Below, in pieces: positions 26,212 to 31,651 of a stretch of DNA of 32,589 nt. The translations under genes were made by a program, and so were the position numbers. The notes below the pieces were generated by a model. That model ran no database searches, was not told the origin of the DNA, and saw nothing but the letters and a program-made list of their open reading frames with translations. Origin of the DNA: Candidatus Baltobacteraceae bacterium (lineage in GTDB: Bacteria > Vulcanimicrobiota > Vulcanimicrobiia > Vulcanimicrobiales > Vulcanimicrobiaceae); contig DATJTX010000011.1 in NCBI GenBank assembly GCA_035502855.1, positions 1-32,589 on the forward strand. The letters are read 5' to 3'. Positions within the stretch are counted from its first letter, which is position 1. Each line of letters starts with the position of its first letter.

Positions 26212-26874
26212 ATGACTACGTCTCACGTCCACGGTGAACGAACGGTCGTCGAAGTCGAGACCGCCGGTTCGGTTATCGAGGCTGGAGCCGGAGTTGCCGT
26301 CATTGCCTTAGCCATTATCGGTTTGGCGCGTGGCGACAATGGATTCGTCACGGCCATTGCGGCGATCGTTCTCGGCGCGGCGCTATTCGCGCAAGGCGGA
26401 GCGATCGCAGCTCAATACTCCAAACTCGTCGATCTCATCAGCGGAGGCGCGATCGGCGCGATCGAACTCGGCGGCGGCATGGGCAGCGATATCATTGCCG
26501 GTGCCGCGGTCGTCGTGCTCGGCATTCTCGGGTTGATCGGCTTTTCGCCGGGCATCCTGCTGGCGAGTGCCGTCATCGCCGCCGGCGCAACGCTGCTGTT
26601 AGGTTCTGCCAGCATCGAGCGCCTGGCGATGTTTCGCGCCAGCGCTGCCGGCCTCAGCGAGATGGCCACGAAGCTCACGCAAGCCACCGTCGCGAGCGCG
26701 GTGACCGCACAGGTCCTCACCGGCTGCGGCGCCATCGTACTCGGCATCATCGCTCTGGCGATGCCGGCGCACGCCATCGCGCTTACGCTGATCGCGCTTC
26801 TGGCGCTCGGCGGATCGATAATGGTTACCGGCGCGGCGCTTACCGGCCGTCTGATGCAATTCTTCGAACGCTGA
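26212..26874 (+). CDS. Six-helix membrane protein with three repeated hairpins (HdeD/DUF308-like)
   Basis: The 220-aa hydrophobic protein has three similar units of about 60-70 residues, each made of two transmembrane helices. They start near residue 20 (GSVIEAGAGVAVIALAIIGLA), near 93 (GSDIIAGAAVVVLGILGLIG) and near 165 (TAQVLTGCGAIVLGIIALAM). Each ends with a Gly/Ala-rich second helix and an LxxL-type tail. This architecture recalls HdeD/DUF308 proteins, some of which act in acid or stress resistance, but the match is by pattern only. The N-terminus is a polar tail with two His. AGGAGG at 26196-26201 lies 10 bases before the start. It stands alone between divergent and convergent neighbours, so it has its own promoter in the 196-bp upstream gap. 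Confidence 0.72.
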   Translation: MTTSHVHGERTVVEVETAGSVIEAGAGVAVIALAIIGLARGDNGFVTAIAAIVLGAALFAQGGAIAAQYSKLVDLISGGAIGAIELGGGMGSDIIAGAAVVVLGILGLIGFSPGILLASAVIAAGATLLLGSASIERLAMFRASAAGLSEMATKLTQATVASAVTAQVLTGCGAIVLGIIALAMPAHAIALTLIALLALGGSIMVTGAALTGRLMQFFER

Positions 26875-26905
26875 TCCCGATCGCCCAACCATCCGCGCCG
26901 CGCGG

Positions 26906-28870
26906 CTATGACGATGCTTGCGCGACGCGGCGGCGCTGGAAGCGCCGCGGTACACGCGGACTGGGTTCGCGCCGGTCGAGCATGATCGGCAACTCAGCCG
27001 TCACGCGATTACCGCGGCGCGTGCGCGCGATCGTGAGCGCGCGCGCGAGGTTCTCGACCAGCAGTAAGCCGCGTCCGCCTTCGGCGAGAGCGTCGGGCTG
27101 CGCGACCGCATGGACGATCGGCTGGCCTTCGTCGGCGACGTGCAAGAACGCGCCGTCTTCCATGATCTCGAGCGTGATCTCGGCCGATCCGGGCGTATGG
27201 CGTGCCACGTTGCCGACCAGTTCACCGAAAATGAGTTCCGGTGCGGACAGGTCGGTTCCGTCGGACGCGAACTCGCCCAGATGCCAGAGGAACGCGCGCT
27301 TGGCGCGGCGGGCGGCCGACGCGCTGCGCGCGTCGATCGTCCAGGTCTTCACCGTGTTCACACGCGCGAATCCGATGTCGGTGATGCCGATGAAGAGCAC
27401 GGCCGCGTCGTCGCCGGGAACGCTCCCGTCGAGTACGTCGCGCAGGATGACGTTCGCGATGTTCTCGGTGGCGTTGTAATACTCGCGGTTCACGATGTCG
27501 ATCAAACGCTCGACGCCGGCGGAGTAGTCGCGGCCCAATTTCCGGTCGACTTCGACCACGCCGTCGGTGAAGACGACGATCGCCGAACCGGCGTCGAGGG
27601 AGAGGGAATGTTGCCGGTACTCGGCGCGCCGGTCGGCGCCCATGATCAGACCGCCGCCGGTAATCTGCTCGACGACGCCGGTTGCGCGAACGGTGATCGG
27701 CATCGGGTGACCGGCCGACGCGTAGCGCAATACGCCGCTGGTCAGTGAAAGCTCGCCGTAGAAAAGCGTCACGAGCGGGCCGCTGTCGTCGCACGCGGCG
27801 CGATTGACGGCTTGCAGCACCTCCGAGGGCTGTTCGTACAAGCGCGCGGCCATGCGCACGGATTGACGCATCTGTGCCATCGTGCTCGCGGCTTGCAAGC
27901 CATGCCCCGAAACGTCGCCCACACTGATGCAGAGCCGTCCGTCACCGAGCAGAAAGACGTCGTACCAGTCGCCGCCGACGTCGGCGCCGGCGAGCGAAGG
28001 CGTGTACGACGCGTCGATGCGCACGCCCGGGACCTGCGGCAGATTTTGCGGAAGCAGCGCGCGCTGCAGCACGGTTGCGTTGTTGTGCTCTTGCTGCATG
28101 CGCGTGAGGATCGTACGGTATTCCCGTTCGGCGCCCGCGATCTCGTCGTCGCCGGGCAACGGATCTGGATGTTCGCCGCGCAGCAGTTCCTCGGCGTTCG
28201 TGCGCAATCGCTCCGCACGTCGCGCGACGTGGATCGCGAAGGCGACGGCGAGCGCCAGAAACAGCACCATACCGCCGAGGAGCGTCCCGAGCAAGATCGC
28301 CGAGAAGCGGCGAAGGTACAGGCTGGTGCTCGCGAGCGCGTTGACGGCGATCACACGCTCGGCGCGGTCGACGTCGCGTTTTGCGGTCACCAGCGTGGCA
28401 GAGAGTTTTGCCGTTGCGGGCGATGCGATCATCGCCTTCATCGTGGCCGAATCGCCGCGCCGCGCCGCGTAGAAATAGCGCGCCAGAAACGCGCTGCCGG
28501 TATCGACCGCGGTCGCGAATATGCCGGCGTACCGCCGCTCGCCCGGCGTCGCATCGGCCTCCGACACGAGGGTAGCCACGCGCCGGCGCACTTCTCGAAC
28601 CGCCGCACGAAATGCGGCGACGTCTCGCGCGTCGTCCGCCCGGCGGTAGCTGGTGGCGACGTCGTCTTCTTGGCTGAACGCGTTCTGCAGCGCGTCGTTG
28701 GCAAGGATCACCCGCTGGGTGTGATCGGCCCAAAACGCGGTTCGGCCGATTGCGGCTCGCGTGCTCACGGTATAGGCGAGCATTGCTGCCAGCACCACGA
28801 TCGGCACCAGTGCGATCAGAATCGCTTGGACGCGGAGTTGCGAGAAGAGCGTGCCCAAAGGCCGTACCAT
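26906..28870 (-). CDS. Membrane sensor SpoIIE/RsbU-type phosphatase fused to an anti-sigma-type HATPase domain
   Basis: In partner-switching systems, PP2C phosphatases dephosphorylate anti-anti-sigma factors and HATPase kinases bind sigma factors. This 654-aa protein combines both. It has TM1 (about 15-36), a helical extracytoplasmic sensor region (37-188), TM2 (190-213), a HAMP-like linker (214-262), then a SpoIIE domain. The SpoIIE metal ligands sit in GGDWYDVF (Asp301), GDVSGHG (Asp319), FTDGVVE (Asp436) and GDDAAVL (Asp487/488). A C-terminal RsbW-like HATPase domain (about 505-635) has the N-box ELVGNVARH (Asn554) and the G-box GGRGLLLVENLA. The fusion implies that phosphatase and kinase act on the same partner. 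The signal sensed is unknown. Its start lies 104 bp from the divergent small Cys/His gene. Confidence 0.92.
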   Translation of the reverse strand: MVRPLGTLFSQLRVQAILIALVPIVVLAAMLAYTVSTRAAIGRTAFWADHTQRVILANDALQNAFSQEDDVATSYRRADDARDVAAFRAAVREVRRRVATLVSEADATPGERRYAGIFATAVDTGSAFLARYFYAARRGDSATMKAMIASPATAKLSATLVTAKRDVDRAERVIAVNALASTSLYLRRFSAILLGTLLGGMVLFLALAVAFAIHVARRAERLRTNAEELLRGEHPDPLPGDDEIAGAEREYRTILTRMQQEHNNATVLQRALLPQNLPQVPGVRIDASYTPSLAGADVGGDWYDVFLLGDGRLCISVGDVSGHGLQAASTMAQMRQSVRMAARLYEQPSEVLQAVNRAACDDSGPLVTLFYGELSLTSGVLRYASAGHPMPITVRATGVVEQITGGGLIMGADRRAEYRQHSLSLDAGSAIVVFTDGVVEVDRKLGRDYSAGVERLIDIVNREYYNATENIANVILRDVLDGSVPGDDAAVLFIGITDIGFARVNTVKTWTIDARSASAARRAKRAFLWHLGEFASDGTDLSAPELIFGELVGNVARHTPGSAEITLEIMEDGAFLHVADEGQPIVHAVAQPDALAEGGRGLLLVENLARALTIARTRRGNRVTAELPIMLDRREPSPRVPRRFQRRRVAQASS

Positions 28871-28937
28871 GCAACGCCTTTCTTCGTCGGCACCTCAATC
28901 TCGCCTAGGCGCCTGCTTGCTTCCTTTCTCTCCACGC

Positions 28938-28964
28938 TTTTAACCGGTGGGGCGAGCCGGGTAT
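28938..28964 (+). promoter_or_regulatory. Candidate sigma-B/sigma-F-like promoter
   Basis: TTTTAA (28938-28943), 15 bp, then GGGTAT (28959-28964). The -10 hexamer equals the sigma-B/sigma-F consensus (GTTTAA or GTTT, about 12-17 bp, GGGTAT) and the -35 is close. The predicted transcript would start about 4 bases before the ATG at 28975, so it would be nearly leaderless. It sits between partner-switching genes of the type that control such sigma factors. Sequence match only, no experimental support. Confidence 0.5.
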
Positions 28965-28974
28965 CTTTCTCACC

Positions 28975-29274
28975 ATGGCCATCTCAAAGAAGAAAATCGA
29001 CGCGATTTACGATCTCCGCGAGGCCGCCGAGGCCAAGGCGATCGCCGAAAAGGAAGCGAGCGATCATCCCTCACCGCAGCGCCGGAGTGAATTGCTCGAT
29101 GCGCAGCTTACCCTCGAAGACAAGACGATAGTGGCCATCGAGGCCTGTCACGAATGCGGTCACGAGCACGAGGTGGGAATGCCGCATGGGCCGGCCGCCG
29201 ACGTGATTGCGCTCGACGTCAAACGCCGCCGTCGGCCGGCGTCGCCTGATGCGAACTCTGGGGAAGGTATTTGA
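28975..29274 (+). CDS. Small charged protein with a Cys/His cluster (99 aa), unknown function
   Basis: A plausible short gene. Residues 1-50 are highly charged and helical (MAISKKKIDAIYDLREAAEAKAIAEKEAS), suggesting a coiled-coil or helical hairpin. Then comes ACHECGHEHE (about 57-66), a compact set of two Cys and three His that could bind zinc or another metal. The end is basic (KRRRRPAS). No signal peptide, so likely cytoplasmic. I know no family for it. Its candidate promoter resembles sigma-B-type sites, and it lies between a SpoIIE/HATPase fusion and a stand-alone HATPase, so it may be a general-stress gene. Its last 56 bp overlap the convergent HATPase gene. Confidence 0.6.
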   Translation: MAISKKKIDAIYDLREAAEAKAIAEKEASDHPSPQRRSELLDAQLTLEDKTIVAIEACHECGHEHEVGMPHGPAADVIALDVKRRRRPASPDANSGEGI

Positions 29275-29644
29275 CCAACCGCAGCCGCCGCCCGCGATCG
29301 AGGTAATGCACCTCGTCGAGCAAGCGGTGCATGATGAGAAAACCGTAGCCGCGCGGCGATTCGCGCTCGCGCCGCTCGGCGACGACGTCGGACCGCAAAA
29401 AGCCGACGACGCGATCCTCGATCTCGACGACCACGCGTTCGTCGTCGCACGCGCACGACACGATCAGTGTCTGTCCGCCGCCGTGCTCCACCAGGTTCGC
29501 CAGTGCTTCGCCCAACGCGATCTCGAACTCGGAGAGATGCTCTCCCGAGAGCCAGGAGCGCACCGCATCGACGATGATCTTCCGCGCCCGATGCAGACTG
29601 TCTGCCGAGCGCTGAAAGTAGCGGCGATAGCTCGCGGGGTCCAT
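29219..29644 (-). CDS. Anti-sigma-factor-type HATPase (RsbW-like)
   Basis: This 141-aa single-domain GHKL ATPase acts in the cytoplasm, probably as a serine kinase/sigma-binding switch. The N-box is EIALGEALANLVEHGGG (about 41-57, Asn50), the G1-type box is VVVEIEDRVVGF (Asp77), and the G2-type box is SPRGYGFLIMHRLLDEV (about 96-112). The ATG at 29644 begins the domain. Upstream, GAGGAG precedes a four-codon ATG frame whose TAA overlaps this ATG (TAATG), a possible but unproven leader. The gene is co-oriented with the amidase-like gene 50 bp upstream. It is a likely partner of the neighbouring SpoIIE fusion. Its C-terminal 56 bp overlap the Cys/His gene in antisense. Confidence 0.85.
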   Translation of the reverse strand: MDPASYRRYFQRSADSLHRARKIIVDAVRSWLSGEHLSEFEIALGEALANLVEHGGGQTLIVSCACDDERVVVEIEDRVVGFLRSDVVAERRERESPRGYGFLIMHRLLDEVHYLDRGRRLRLVKYLPQSSHQATPADGGV

Positions 29645-29694
29645 TATAGAATGTTCATGCCCAAGCGCTCTCCTCGTTACACCGCGAATAGTGC

Positions 29695-30294
29695 TCAAGG
29701 CGGGGCAGGAAACGGAACGCGGACGCCGATTCGTTCGCCCAGGAAGTAGGCAAGTAGCGCGCCCTCCCAGCGCAAGTGGCGTTTCAGCCAGGCGTATTGC
29801 GCCGGACACGTCATCTCGCCGCCTTCGATCAGAAACTGGCCGTCGGTTGCGATCACGTGATGGTATGCGTAGTACGCGCGCTCGGTCGGCGTGAAGTCGT
29901 CGTGCTTGAATCGGTAAGGCCAATATTTTCCGTAGAGCCGTTTCCACGCGTCCGCGATATTTTTCGATGCGGTGCTATAGCGCGGATAGGCGACCGATGC
30001 GCCCGAACTACACGGGACCACGTTGCCGTCGAAGTGCACGTAGACCGCGACGCGCACGTGATAGGTTCCGTGCACGTACGCGGGCAGCCGCAACACGCGC
30101 ACGCCGTGCGCGCGCAAAACACGCGCCGCTTCGTTGGCCACGATCGGATTCCAGACGATCTCTCCCGGCGGCGTGCCGGCCCCGGTGTTGTGGCATAGGC
30201 TCTGCGGCTCGCGCCAACAATCGGGACGCCCTTGGTGCCCGGCTTGAATCAATACGTCATAGTGTGTGAGGACGGCGAGGAGCAACCCTAGCAT
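29695..30294 (-). CDS. N-acetylmuramoyl-L-alanine amidase-like protein (amidase_3 fold)
   Basis: The 199-aa protein shows the sparse but ordered signature of zinc amidases of the AmiA/CwlV type: VLIQAGHQG with His20, IVANEAARVLRAHGVRVLRL with Glu55, VAVYVHFDGN with His87, and a late acidic residue in FLIEGGEM (Glu157 or Glu160). In this family the two His and the first Glu bind zinc, and the last Glu is catalytic. The usual HxDA motif after the second strand is replaced by HFDG. The N-terminus (MLGLLLAVLTHYD) is too short for a standard signal peptide, so location is unclear. Peptidoglycan as substrate is inferred. It is divergent from the oxidoreductase gene, with only 26 bp between starts. 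Confidence 0.65.
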   Translation of the reverse strand: MLGLLLAVLTHYDVLIQAGHQGRPDCWREPQSLCHNTGAGTPPGEIVWNPIVANEAARVLRAHGVRVLRLPAYVHGTYHVRVAVYVHFDGNVVPCSSGASVAYPRYSTASKNIADAWKRLYGKYWPYRFKHDDFTPTERAYYAYHHVIATDGQFLIEGGEMTCPAQYAWLKRHLRWEGALLAYFLGERIGVRVPFPAPP

Positions 30295-30320
30295 ATCGAG
30301 GCCTGTTCCACACGATAGCT

Positions 30321-31304
30321 ATGCGTGCATTGCGATTCGAAAAATTCGGTGAGCCCTCGTCCGTGCTTCAGGTCGCGGACCTTCCCGACCCGGTCGCAAG
30401 CGAGGGCTTTGCGGTGGTTCGCATCACCGCCGCGTCGATCAACCCGAGCGACGTGAAAAACGTGGCGGGTGCGATGGAGGGGACGACGCTGCCGCGCACG
30501 CCGGGGCGCGATTATGCCGGTATCGTCGAGGACGGTCCAAGAGAGTGGCTCGGTCGCGACGTCTTCGGAACGGGCGGCGAGATCGGGTTCACCATCGACG
30601 GCTCGCACGCCGAGTTGATGCGGCTGCCGGTCGCGGCGCTGACGCCCAAGCCTTCCAAGTTGAGCGCTGCCGAAGCCGCGAGCGTGGGCGTAACCGCGGT
30701 CATCGCATGGCTCGGCTTGATCGAATTCGCGGCGTTGCTGCCCGGCGAGAGCGTCGCGATCGTCGGCGTCGGCGGCGGGGTAGGCACGGCGGTCGCACAA
30801 CTTGCGCGCTGGCGTGGTGCATCGTTCATCGTCGGTGCCGACGTGTTGCCGCCCGCACCGGGTTCACCGGCCGCGCGCGCGATCGATCGCTACGTCGCAA
30901 GCGACGAGCATCTCACGCAGGCGATTCGCGATGCAACCGGCGGCAAGGGCGCTGACGTCATCTTCGATGCGGTCGGCGGCATCACGTTCGAAGCTTCGCT
31001 CAAGAGCCTCGCACTCCGCGGGCGACTGGTGACGATCGCCGCGACCGGGAAGACGCGTGTCGAATTCGATCTGCGGGACTTCTATCATAACGAAAGCCGA
31101 ATCATCGGTGCGGATAGCCGTAAGCTCGATGCGAGCGCGTCGGCCGAGCGCTTGCGGGCGATGCTTCCCGCCTTTGAATCGGGCGCGCTGGCAGCGGCGC
31201 CGATGGACCGCGCCGTGCCACTGGGCCAGGCGGTTGATGCGTACGAGCAGGTGGCCAAGGGTGCGCGGGATCGCTTCGTTCTGGCACCGCGTGGTAGACT
31301 CTAG
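30321..31304 (+). CDS. MDR-superfamily quinone oxidoreductase-like protein (zinc-free)
   Basis: NAD(P)H-dependent medium-chain reductase of 327 residues. It has a GroES-like N-terminal domain (MRALRFEKFGEPSSVLQV, AASINPSDVKNVAG, PGRDYAGIVEDG) and a Rossmann domain with the nucleotide-binding turn AIVGVGGGVGTAVAQLARWRGA. Then follow GGKGADVIFDAVGG and the C-terminal FVLAPRG. The catalytic and structural zinc cysteines of alcohol dehydrogenases are absent, so it belongs with QOR-type reductases acting on quinones or enones; the substrate is unknown. First of three closely spaced genes (2-bp gap to the His-rich gene). The 26-bp gap to the divergent gene leaves almost no room for a leader, so the transcript is probably leaderless. 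Confidence 0.9.
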   Translation: MRALRFEKFGEPSSVLQVADLPDPVASEGFAVVRITAASINPSDVKNVAGAMEGTTLPRTPGRDYAGIVEDGPREWLGRDVFGTGGEIGFTIDGSHAELMRLPVAALTPKPSKLSAAEAASVGVTAVIAWLGLIEFAALLPGESVAIVGVGGGVGTAVAQLARWRGASFIVGADVLPPAPGSPAARAIDRYVASDEHLTQAIRDATGGKGADVIFDAVGGITFEASLKSLALRGRLVTIAATGKTRVEFDLRDFYHNESRIIGADSRKLDASASAERLRAMLPAFESGALAAAPMDRAVPLGQAVDAYEQVAKGARDRFVLAPRGRL

Positions 31305-31306
31305 AC

Positions 31307-31651
31307 ATGGAACATACGACGCACGACAAGCATTCGCATAGTCATGGGACCGATTGTGCGCATCCGAAAATCCAACACAAAGGGCACGTGGATTATCTTC
31401 ACGACGGCCATCTGCATCACGTGCACGAAGGACACATCGACGAACACGTCGTCGAGGTCTCGAGCACGAATCCCGCCGAGTGCACCAAAACGCATGCGTG
31501 CGGAGGTCACGAAGGATCGCACAAACACGGCACGGGTTGCGGCCACAATGCCGTACCGCACGGCGATCATGCGGATTACTTGGTGAAGGGCCATCTGCAC
31601 CACGCGCACGATTCGCATTGCGACGATCACGGGGTGCTGGCCACCGCGTAA
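31307..31651 (+). CDS. Histidine-rich metal-binding protein with internal duplication (114 aa)
   Basis: About 28 of 114 residues are His, with five Cys and many Asp/Glu, which strongly suggests binding of zinc, nickel, copper or a similar ion. The protein has two homologous halves. The first (about residues 13-47) has HGTDCAH followed by KGHVDYLHDGHLHHVHEGH and then IDEH. The second (about 74-108) has HGTGCGH followed by GDHADYLVKGHLHHAHDSH and then CDDH. They are joined by a linker (VVEVSSTNPAECTKTHACGG) with two Cys. There is no signal peptide or membrane helix, so it is likely cytoplasmic. I recall similar His-rich proteins in other bacteria, but no named function. It may store or buffer metal, or deliver it to a partner. 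Second gene of the operon, 2 bp after the oxidoreductase and 18 bp before the phosphatase. Confidence 0.78.
   Translation: MEHTTHDKHSHSHGTDCAHPKIQHKGHVDYLHDGHLHHVHEGHIDEHVVEVSSTNPAECTKTHACGGHEGSHKHGTGCGHNAVPHGDHADYLVKGHLHHAHDSHCDDHGVLATA

Follow-up and report, generated by a model that had tools for sequence, protein, structure and literature searches.

A small Cys/His protein and a stand-alone RsbW-like HATPase are encoded tail to tail in a restricted group of bacterial genomes. We favor, at about even chances, the reading that this conserved convergent unit consists of an orphan RsbW-like HATPase, whose STAS partner would be encoded in trans, and a small protein that would serve as its dedicated third partner. 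What is new is the pairing with this small protein, a modest addition as long as binding is a proposal. No such pair was found in the literature searched, which is no proof that it is unpublished.

Gene organization in the window

The analyzed stretch of 32,589 nucleotides (the window) covers contig C11 completely; the genome comprises 3.33 Mb in 39 contigs. At positions 26906–28870 (minus strand) it encodes a protein of 654 amino acids with membrane segments, as read from the translation, in which Pfam recognized a SpoIIE phosphatase domain (residues 310–494, E = 1.9e-41, 142.6 bits with a cut-off of 25) and a C-terminal RsbW-like HATPase_c_2 domain (residues 517–625, E = 1.6e-9). The original prediction of a membrane phosphatase with its own RsbW-like domain was thus borne out, as were a second, stand-alone HATPase close by and a small Cys/His protein between the two. 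The small gene (28975–29274, plus strand) encodes 99 amino acids with the motif CHECGHEH. The stand-alone HATPase (29219–29644, minus strand; 141 amino acids) matched HATPase_c_2 with E = 5.3e-17 and 62.5 bits (cut-off 27.4). The 3' ends of these two genes overlap by 56 bp (29219–29274). Their opposite strands and tail-to-tail overlap were absent from the prediction, which did not propose a conserved pairing. A simple sigma-70 scan of positions 26800–30400 returned no promoter-like site, and the three terminator-like sites in this region equal chance (3.0 in shuffles). At 31307–31651 (plus strand) the window also encodes a very His-rich protein of 114 amino acids with Cys and repeated DGHLHHxHxxH stretches; it had no Pfam or NCBIfam match at E 0.01 and is possibly metal-binding.

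HATPases of the SpoIIAB/RsbW family bind STAS proteins and phosphorylate them, a modification that SpoIIE-type phosphatases reverse. The SpoIIE and HATPase_c_2 domains, together with sigB, rsbV and rsbW genes elsewhere in the genome, agree with the assignment of the genes to partner switching. As predicted, no STAS or sigma-B-type gene was matched on the window contig. The genome contains six STAS matches (PF01740) and one match above the cut-off of the TIGR02980 profile (279.9 bits), a sigma-B-type factor, all of them elsewhere.

Conservation of the convergent pair

Relatives of the small gene were located in 22 genomes, giving 23 loci with G066 counted twice. The HATPase adjoins the small gene in 21 of these (exceptions G046 and G048), and the pair is convergent in 20; in G045 the genes are adjacent but divergent. 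Both stop codons share an exact 4-bp overlap in nine loci, G043 among them, and in most other pairs the ends are tight, with gaps of up to 52 bp in some; frameshifts blur the gene ends in G025 and G073. The adjacent pair spans 12 genera. Convergent gene pairs are treated in PMC2716372 and PMC2174442, and according to the latter 4-bp convergent overlaps form a general peak. The overlap length is therefore ordinary, and the retained adjacency is not.

The neighborhoods were compared through the ORFs of 20 stretches, namely the end of the window and 19 stretches from other genomes. The small protein was matched in as many as 19 other stretches, the HATPase in as many as 17, and ORFs that overlap neither of the two in at most four. 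No neighbor beyond the HATPase, SpoIIE included, is conserved beside the small gene. Two further observations were made on the loci: genome G066 carries two convergent pairs that have diverged from each other (L088 and L093), and 3 of the 21 loci scanned have a tRNA gene no more than about 120 bp from the small gene (L082, 6304–6379; L092, 5928–6000; L120, 1755–1841). The nearby tRNA genes could mark an insertion site.

A conserved association of SpoIIE with the pair was considered and rejected, as SpoIIE adjoins the pair only in the window genome among the loci examined. The window SpoIIE protein had no tblastn match in the other 21 small-gene loci and no blastp match in the 19 larger stretches from other genomes. 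Its nearest relative, 67% identical, was found in a Candidatus Eremiobacterota MAG on a 6-kb contig (L041), where the small-gene/HATPase pair is absent. The window genome has eight SpoIIE (PF07228) and 19 HATPase (PF13581) matches; five of the 19 share frames with SpoIIE matches, which gives five fusions in the genome, that of the window included. The fused phosphatase-kinase is a known architecture of the Rv1364c kind; the presumed target of its phosphatase activity is a STAS protein from another locus. The best explanation is that the fusion and the convergent pair are two separate things side by side. The predicted compact module accordingly stands for the tie between the small protein and the stand-alone HATPase, but not for SpoIIE.

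The small Cys/His protein

Among the 103 genomes of the order, a single-sequence search found the small protein in 21, and a profile search at E 0.01 in 22, one of them weak (G029). In the phylum as a whole, matches at E 0.001 came from 22 of 149 genomes and 14 of 70 genera, with one genome outside the family (G121). Neither Pfam nor NCBIfam gave a match to the window protein at E 0.01. Judged by these searches, it is a lineage-restricted family with no database name. DUF6891, the best Pfam candidate (E 0.0021, in one of 20 members), was taken as chance, as was a proteasome subunit, the best solved relative by sequence (E 0.11). A phage, plasmid or defense origin was likewise rejected: there was no PHROGs or PADLOC match and no relative in viral contigs or plasmids.

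Identity to the window copy falls to 29%. L14, R15, T51, A54 and C58 are invariant in 20 aligned small proteins, and C61 and H65 are kept in at least 90% of them. The Cys/His motif is present in most members and absent from the copy on G066 contig C245, which belongs to the second pair. In six ortholog pairs dN was 0.08–0.34 and dS 0.55–2.13, with dN below dS in every pair, which indicates that the small ORF is under purifying selection. AlphaFold2 predicted two long helices as a confident hairpin (block pLDDT up to 99), with CxxCxxxH at the end of the second helix and a tail of pLDDT 56–68. Fold matching returned no PDB match at E 0.001, and the matches listed were long-helix proteins. A DksA/TraR-like protein was considered as a possible reading of the hairpin. 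The CxxCxxxH makes a metal or redox input, as originally suggested, plausible; the one member that lacks the Cys/His motif counts against such an input.

The stand-alone HATPase

NCBIfam matches of the stand-alone HATPase to RsbA, RsbW and SpoIIAB were weak and all below cut-off, those to the equivalog models far below it (RsbW, 23.5 bits with a cut-off of 145; SpoIIAB, 22.4 bits with a cut-off of 135). Among its orthologs R21, N50, H54, G81, R98, G99 and G101 are invariant, and E46 is kept in at least 90%. The window protein retains E46, N50, H54 and RGxG, and DRVVG replaces the DxGxG of the majority. As counted by eye, the Asp of this box is His in 4 and Asn in 1 of 18 HATPases. With these substitutions and the DRVVG box, kinase activity is not assured, and in the window HATPase, given its DRVVG, even ATP binding is uncertain.

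Paralogs account for many of the matches that a profile of the HATPase subfamily gave, at E 1e-20, in 61 of 103 genomes. Among the first 21 HATPase loci retrieved, five had no intact small gene, which makes the small protein dispensable at these loci. In G024 the small gene is cleanly removed, with its upstream sequence directly abutting the HATPase, and in G008 it is cut to its first codons (both read by eye 3' of the HATPase in L126/L137). These cases represent apparent losses in close relatives. In a tree of 47 HATPases, which has long branches and some unsure parts, HATPases with and without a paired small gene are intermingled (7 and 6 changes). The family's RsbW proteins form one clade (100/100) with the stand-alone HATPase outside it, and the fused domains lie apart from the paired HATPases. 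The proposal of two cooperating kinases was not sustained, since adjacency to SpoIIE is not kept and the tree places the two HATPase domains apart from each other.

A STAS gene was found beside the HATPase with a locally built STAS profile in two loci only: in G078 it lies upstream in the same orientation, and in G011 it is divergent. The STAS proteins at C29:50260 and C27:102190 are the closest of the six in the window genome to those of G078 and G011, and on this similarity they are partner candidates, no more.

The proposed promoter and the sigB operon

The original prediction placed a sigma-B-like promoter of the form GTTT-N15-GGGTAT in front of the small gene. GGGTAT is indeed present at 28959–28964, in the actual context TTTTAA-N15-GGGTAT (28938–28964, plus strand), but the window holds five copies with 4.82 expected by chance, and GTTT-N15-GGGTAT was not matched in it with up to one mismatch. 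TTTAA-N11–17-GGGTAT has a single match in the genome, the window site itself, and therefore marks no regulon. A genome search for the predicted pattern gave no enrichment of GTTT-N13–17-GGGTAT (11 against 8 in the control, the window site not among them) or of GTTT-N14–16-GGGWAW (22 against 20). Of the 22 small-gene loci, 3 have GGGTAT in the 100 nt upstream, compared with 0 for the reversed control, and 19 lack it. This is a weak hint in favor of the prediction.

The genome does contain the switch, away from the window. On contig C39 (minus strand) the order is cysteine-desulfurase-like, DUF948-like and YtxH-like genes (names read from translations), followed by rsbV, rsbW and sigB. Within the family, 95 of 99 genomes carry a close relative of rsbV, as do all 55 of the high-quality ones. 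In 22 of 30 rsbV loci (L151–L180) a GTTT-N15-GGGAA-like site (N16 in L168) lies approximately 360–435 nt upstream of rsbV; other matches of the loose pattern (L178, and a second one in L162) lie elsewhere. The footprinted site, GTTTAC-N13-GGGAAA-like, is at the end of the DUF948-like gene, just before the start of the YtxH-like gene, and the genome's own copy is on C39 near 177131. As the site lies in coding sequence, its conservation could in part reflect constraint on the protein. The Leu codon at the site is TTA in 22 of 30 rows (counted by eye), whereas TTA makes up 1.7% of Leu codons in the long ORFs of the window and 2.6% in a wider set, which points to a DNA signal. Upstream of ytxH-like/rsbV/rsbW/sigB this is apparently a sigma-B-type promoter, and the footprinted promoter of a conserved operon offers a starting point for tests of the general stress regulon in the phylum.

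Scored against the matrix of the 30 sigB-operon rows, the window site reached 1.5 bits at its best spacer. On their own matrix, 28 of the 30 rows scored at least 17 bits and the other two 6.3 and −7.1. A sigma-B-dependent promoter was taken as a GTTT-like −35 and a GGGWAW-like −10 with a spacing of 12–15 nt, and the window site falls outside this definition. A sigma-B promoter at the window site is not supported, as the pattern is absent, not enriched and not conserved, and there is probably none.

Discussion

In the reading that we favor, the stand-alone HATPase would bind a STAS partner encoded elsewhere and, in many members, phosphorylate it. The small helical-hairpin protein would bind the HATPase and shift its state, perhaps in response to a metal, or to thiol oxidation, at CxxCxxxH. 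This reading draws on the adjacency in 21 of 23 loci, 20 of them convergent, set against at most four matches for other ORFs, and on the double pair of G066. Purifying selection on the small gene, the Cys/His motif in most members, the confident hairpin and the invariant HATPase residues also favor it, as do the STAS genes of G078 and G011 and the separate positions of the RsbW clade and the fused domains in the tree. It is weakened by the five HATPase loci that lack an intact small gene, by the small genes of G046 and G048 that lack an adjacent HATPase, by the motif-less G066 copy and the DRVVG box, and by the presence of STAS beside the HATPase in two loci only. A more specific version appears possible but doubtful: a lineage-specific metal- or thiol-sensing adaptor would be the third partner of the orphan kinase, and the two would form a self-contained convergent cassette, duplicated or transferred whole and adjusted through its tail-to-tail overlap.

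Both genes might instead be linked by inheritance or hitch-hiking with no functional tie, as a small neutral cassette or at an insertion spot carrying both. The patchy distribution, the apparent losses and the tRNA genes near 3 of 21 loci would fit this, but other neighbors are not kept although the pair spans 12 genera, with small proteins down to 29% identical to the window copy, and the small gene is under purifying selection; we regard neutral linkage as unlikely. The DNA arrangement itself could keep the pair if overlapping 3' transcripts, through antisense RNA or colliding polymerases, led to alternate expression of kinase and small protein. Such coupling is suggested by the 20 convergent loci, the exact stop overlap in nine, the tight ends of most others and the 56 bp shared in the window. 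However, the G045 pair is adjacent yet divergent, the ends of some pairs lie up to 52 bp apart, and 4-bp overlaps belong to the general peak of PMC2174442, which leaves this coupling rather improbable. Least credible, and in our view very improbable, is a single sigma-B-linked module in which the SpoIIE-HATPase protein, the small protein and the stand-alone HATPase form a two-kinase switch and the small gene is transcribed by sigma-B. The three genes are clustered in the window, the genome has a complete rsbV-rsbW-sigB operon, and GGGTAT precedes 3 of 22 small genes with none in the reversed control. Against this, GTTT-N15-GGGTAT is absent with no genome enrichment (11 and 8; 22 and 20), the site scores 1.5 bits where 28 of 30 sigB-operon sites reach at least 17, and the adjacency of SpoIIE to the pair is not conserved.

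RsbW-like HATPases with no known partner are numerous in many bacteria, and the 19 domain-family matches illustrate this in the present genome. An association between one such kinase and a small protein that persists across genera offers a way into the possible control of orphan kinases, in a phylum with few experimental studies.

A literature search on SpoIIE fused with a HATPase found nothing on that fusion, and one on the sigma-B consensus found nothing. OsaC is treated in PMC10117811. According to PMC12143880, Rv1364c from M. tuberculosis is composed of a PAS domain, a phosphatase, an anti-sigma domain and an anti-anti-sigma domain. Like Rv1364c, the window protein fuses a SpoIIE-type phosphatase to an RsbW-like domain; unlike it, the window protein is a membrane protein and has no PAS or STAS domain. 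As in the RsbV-RsbW-SigB and SpoIIAA-SpoIIAB-SigF switches of B. subtilis, the HATPases are of the HATPase_c_2 family, and STAS and sigma-B-type genes are present in the genome. In contrast to those switches, the stand-alone HATPase lies outside the sigB operon and the RsbW clade, has no adjacent STAS or sigma gene in the window, and scores far below the RsbW and SpoIIAB cut-offs. Gin/CsfB and Fin are small zinc-binding anti-sigma proteins. The small protein resembles them as a small Cys-motif protein near partner-switching parts and differs from them in having one CxxC and a His after a helical hairpin.
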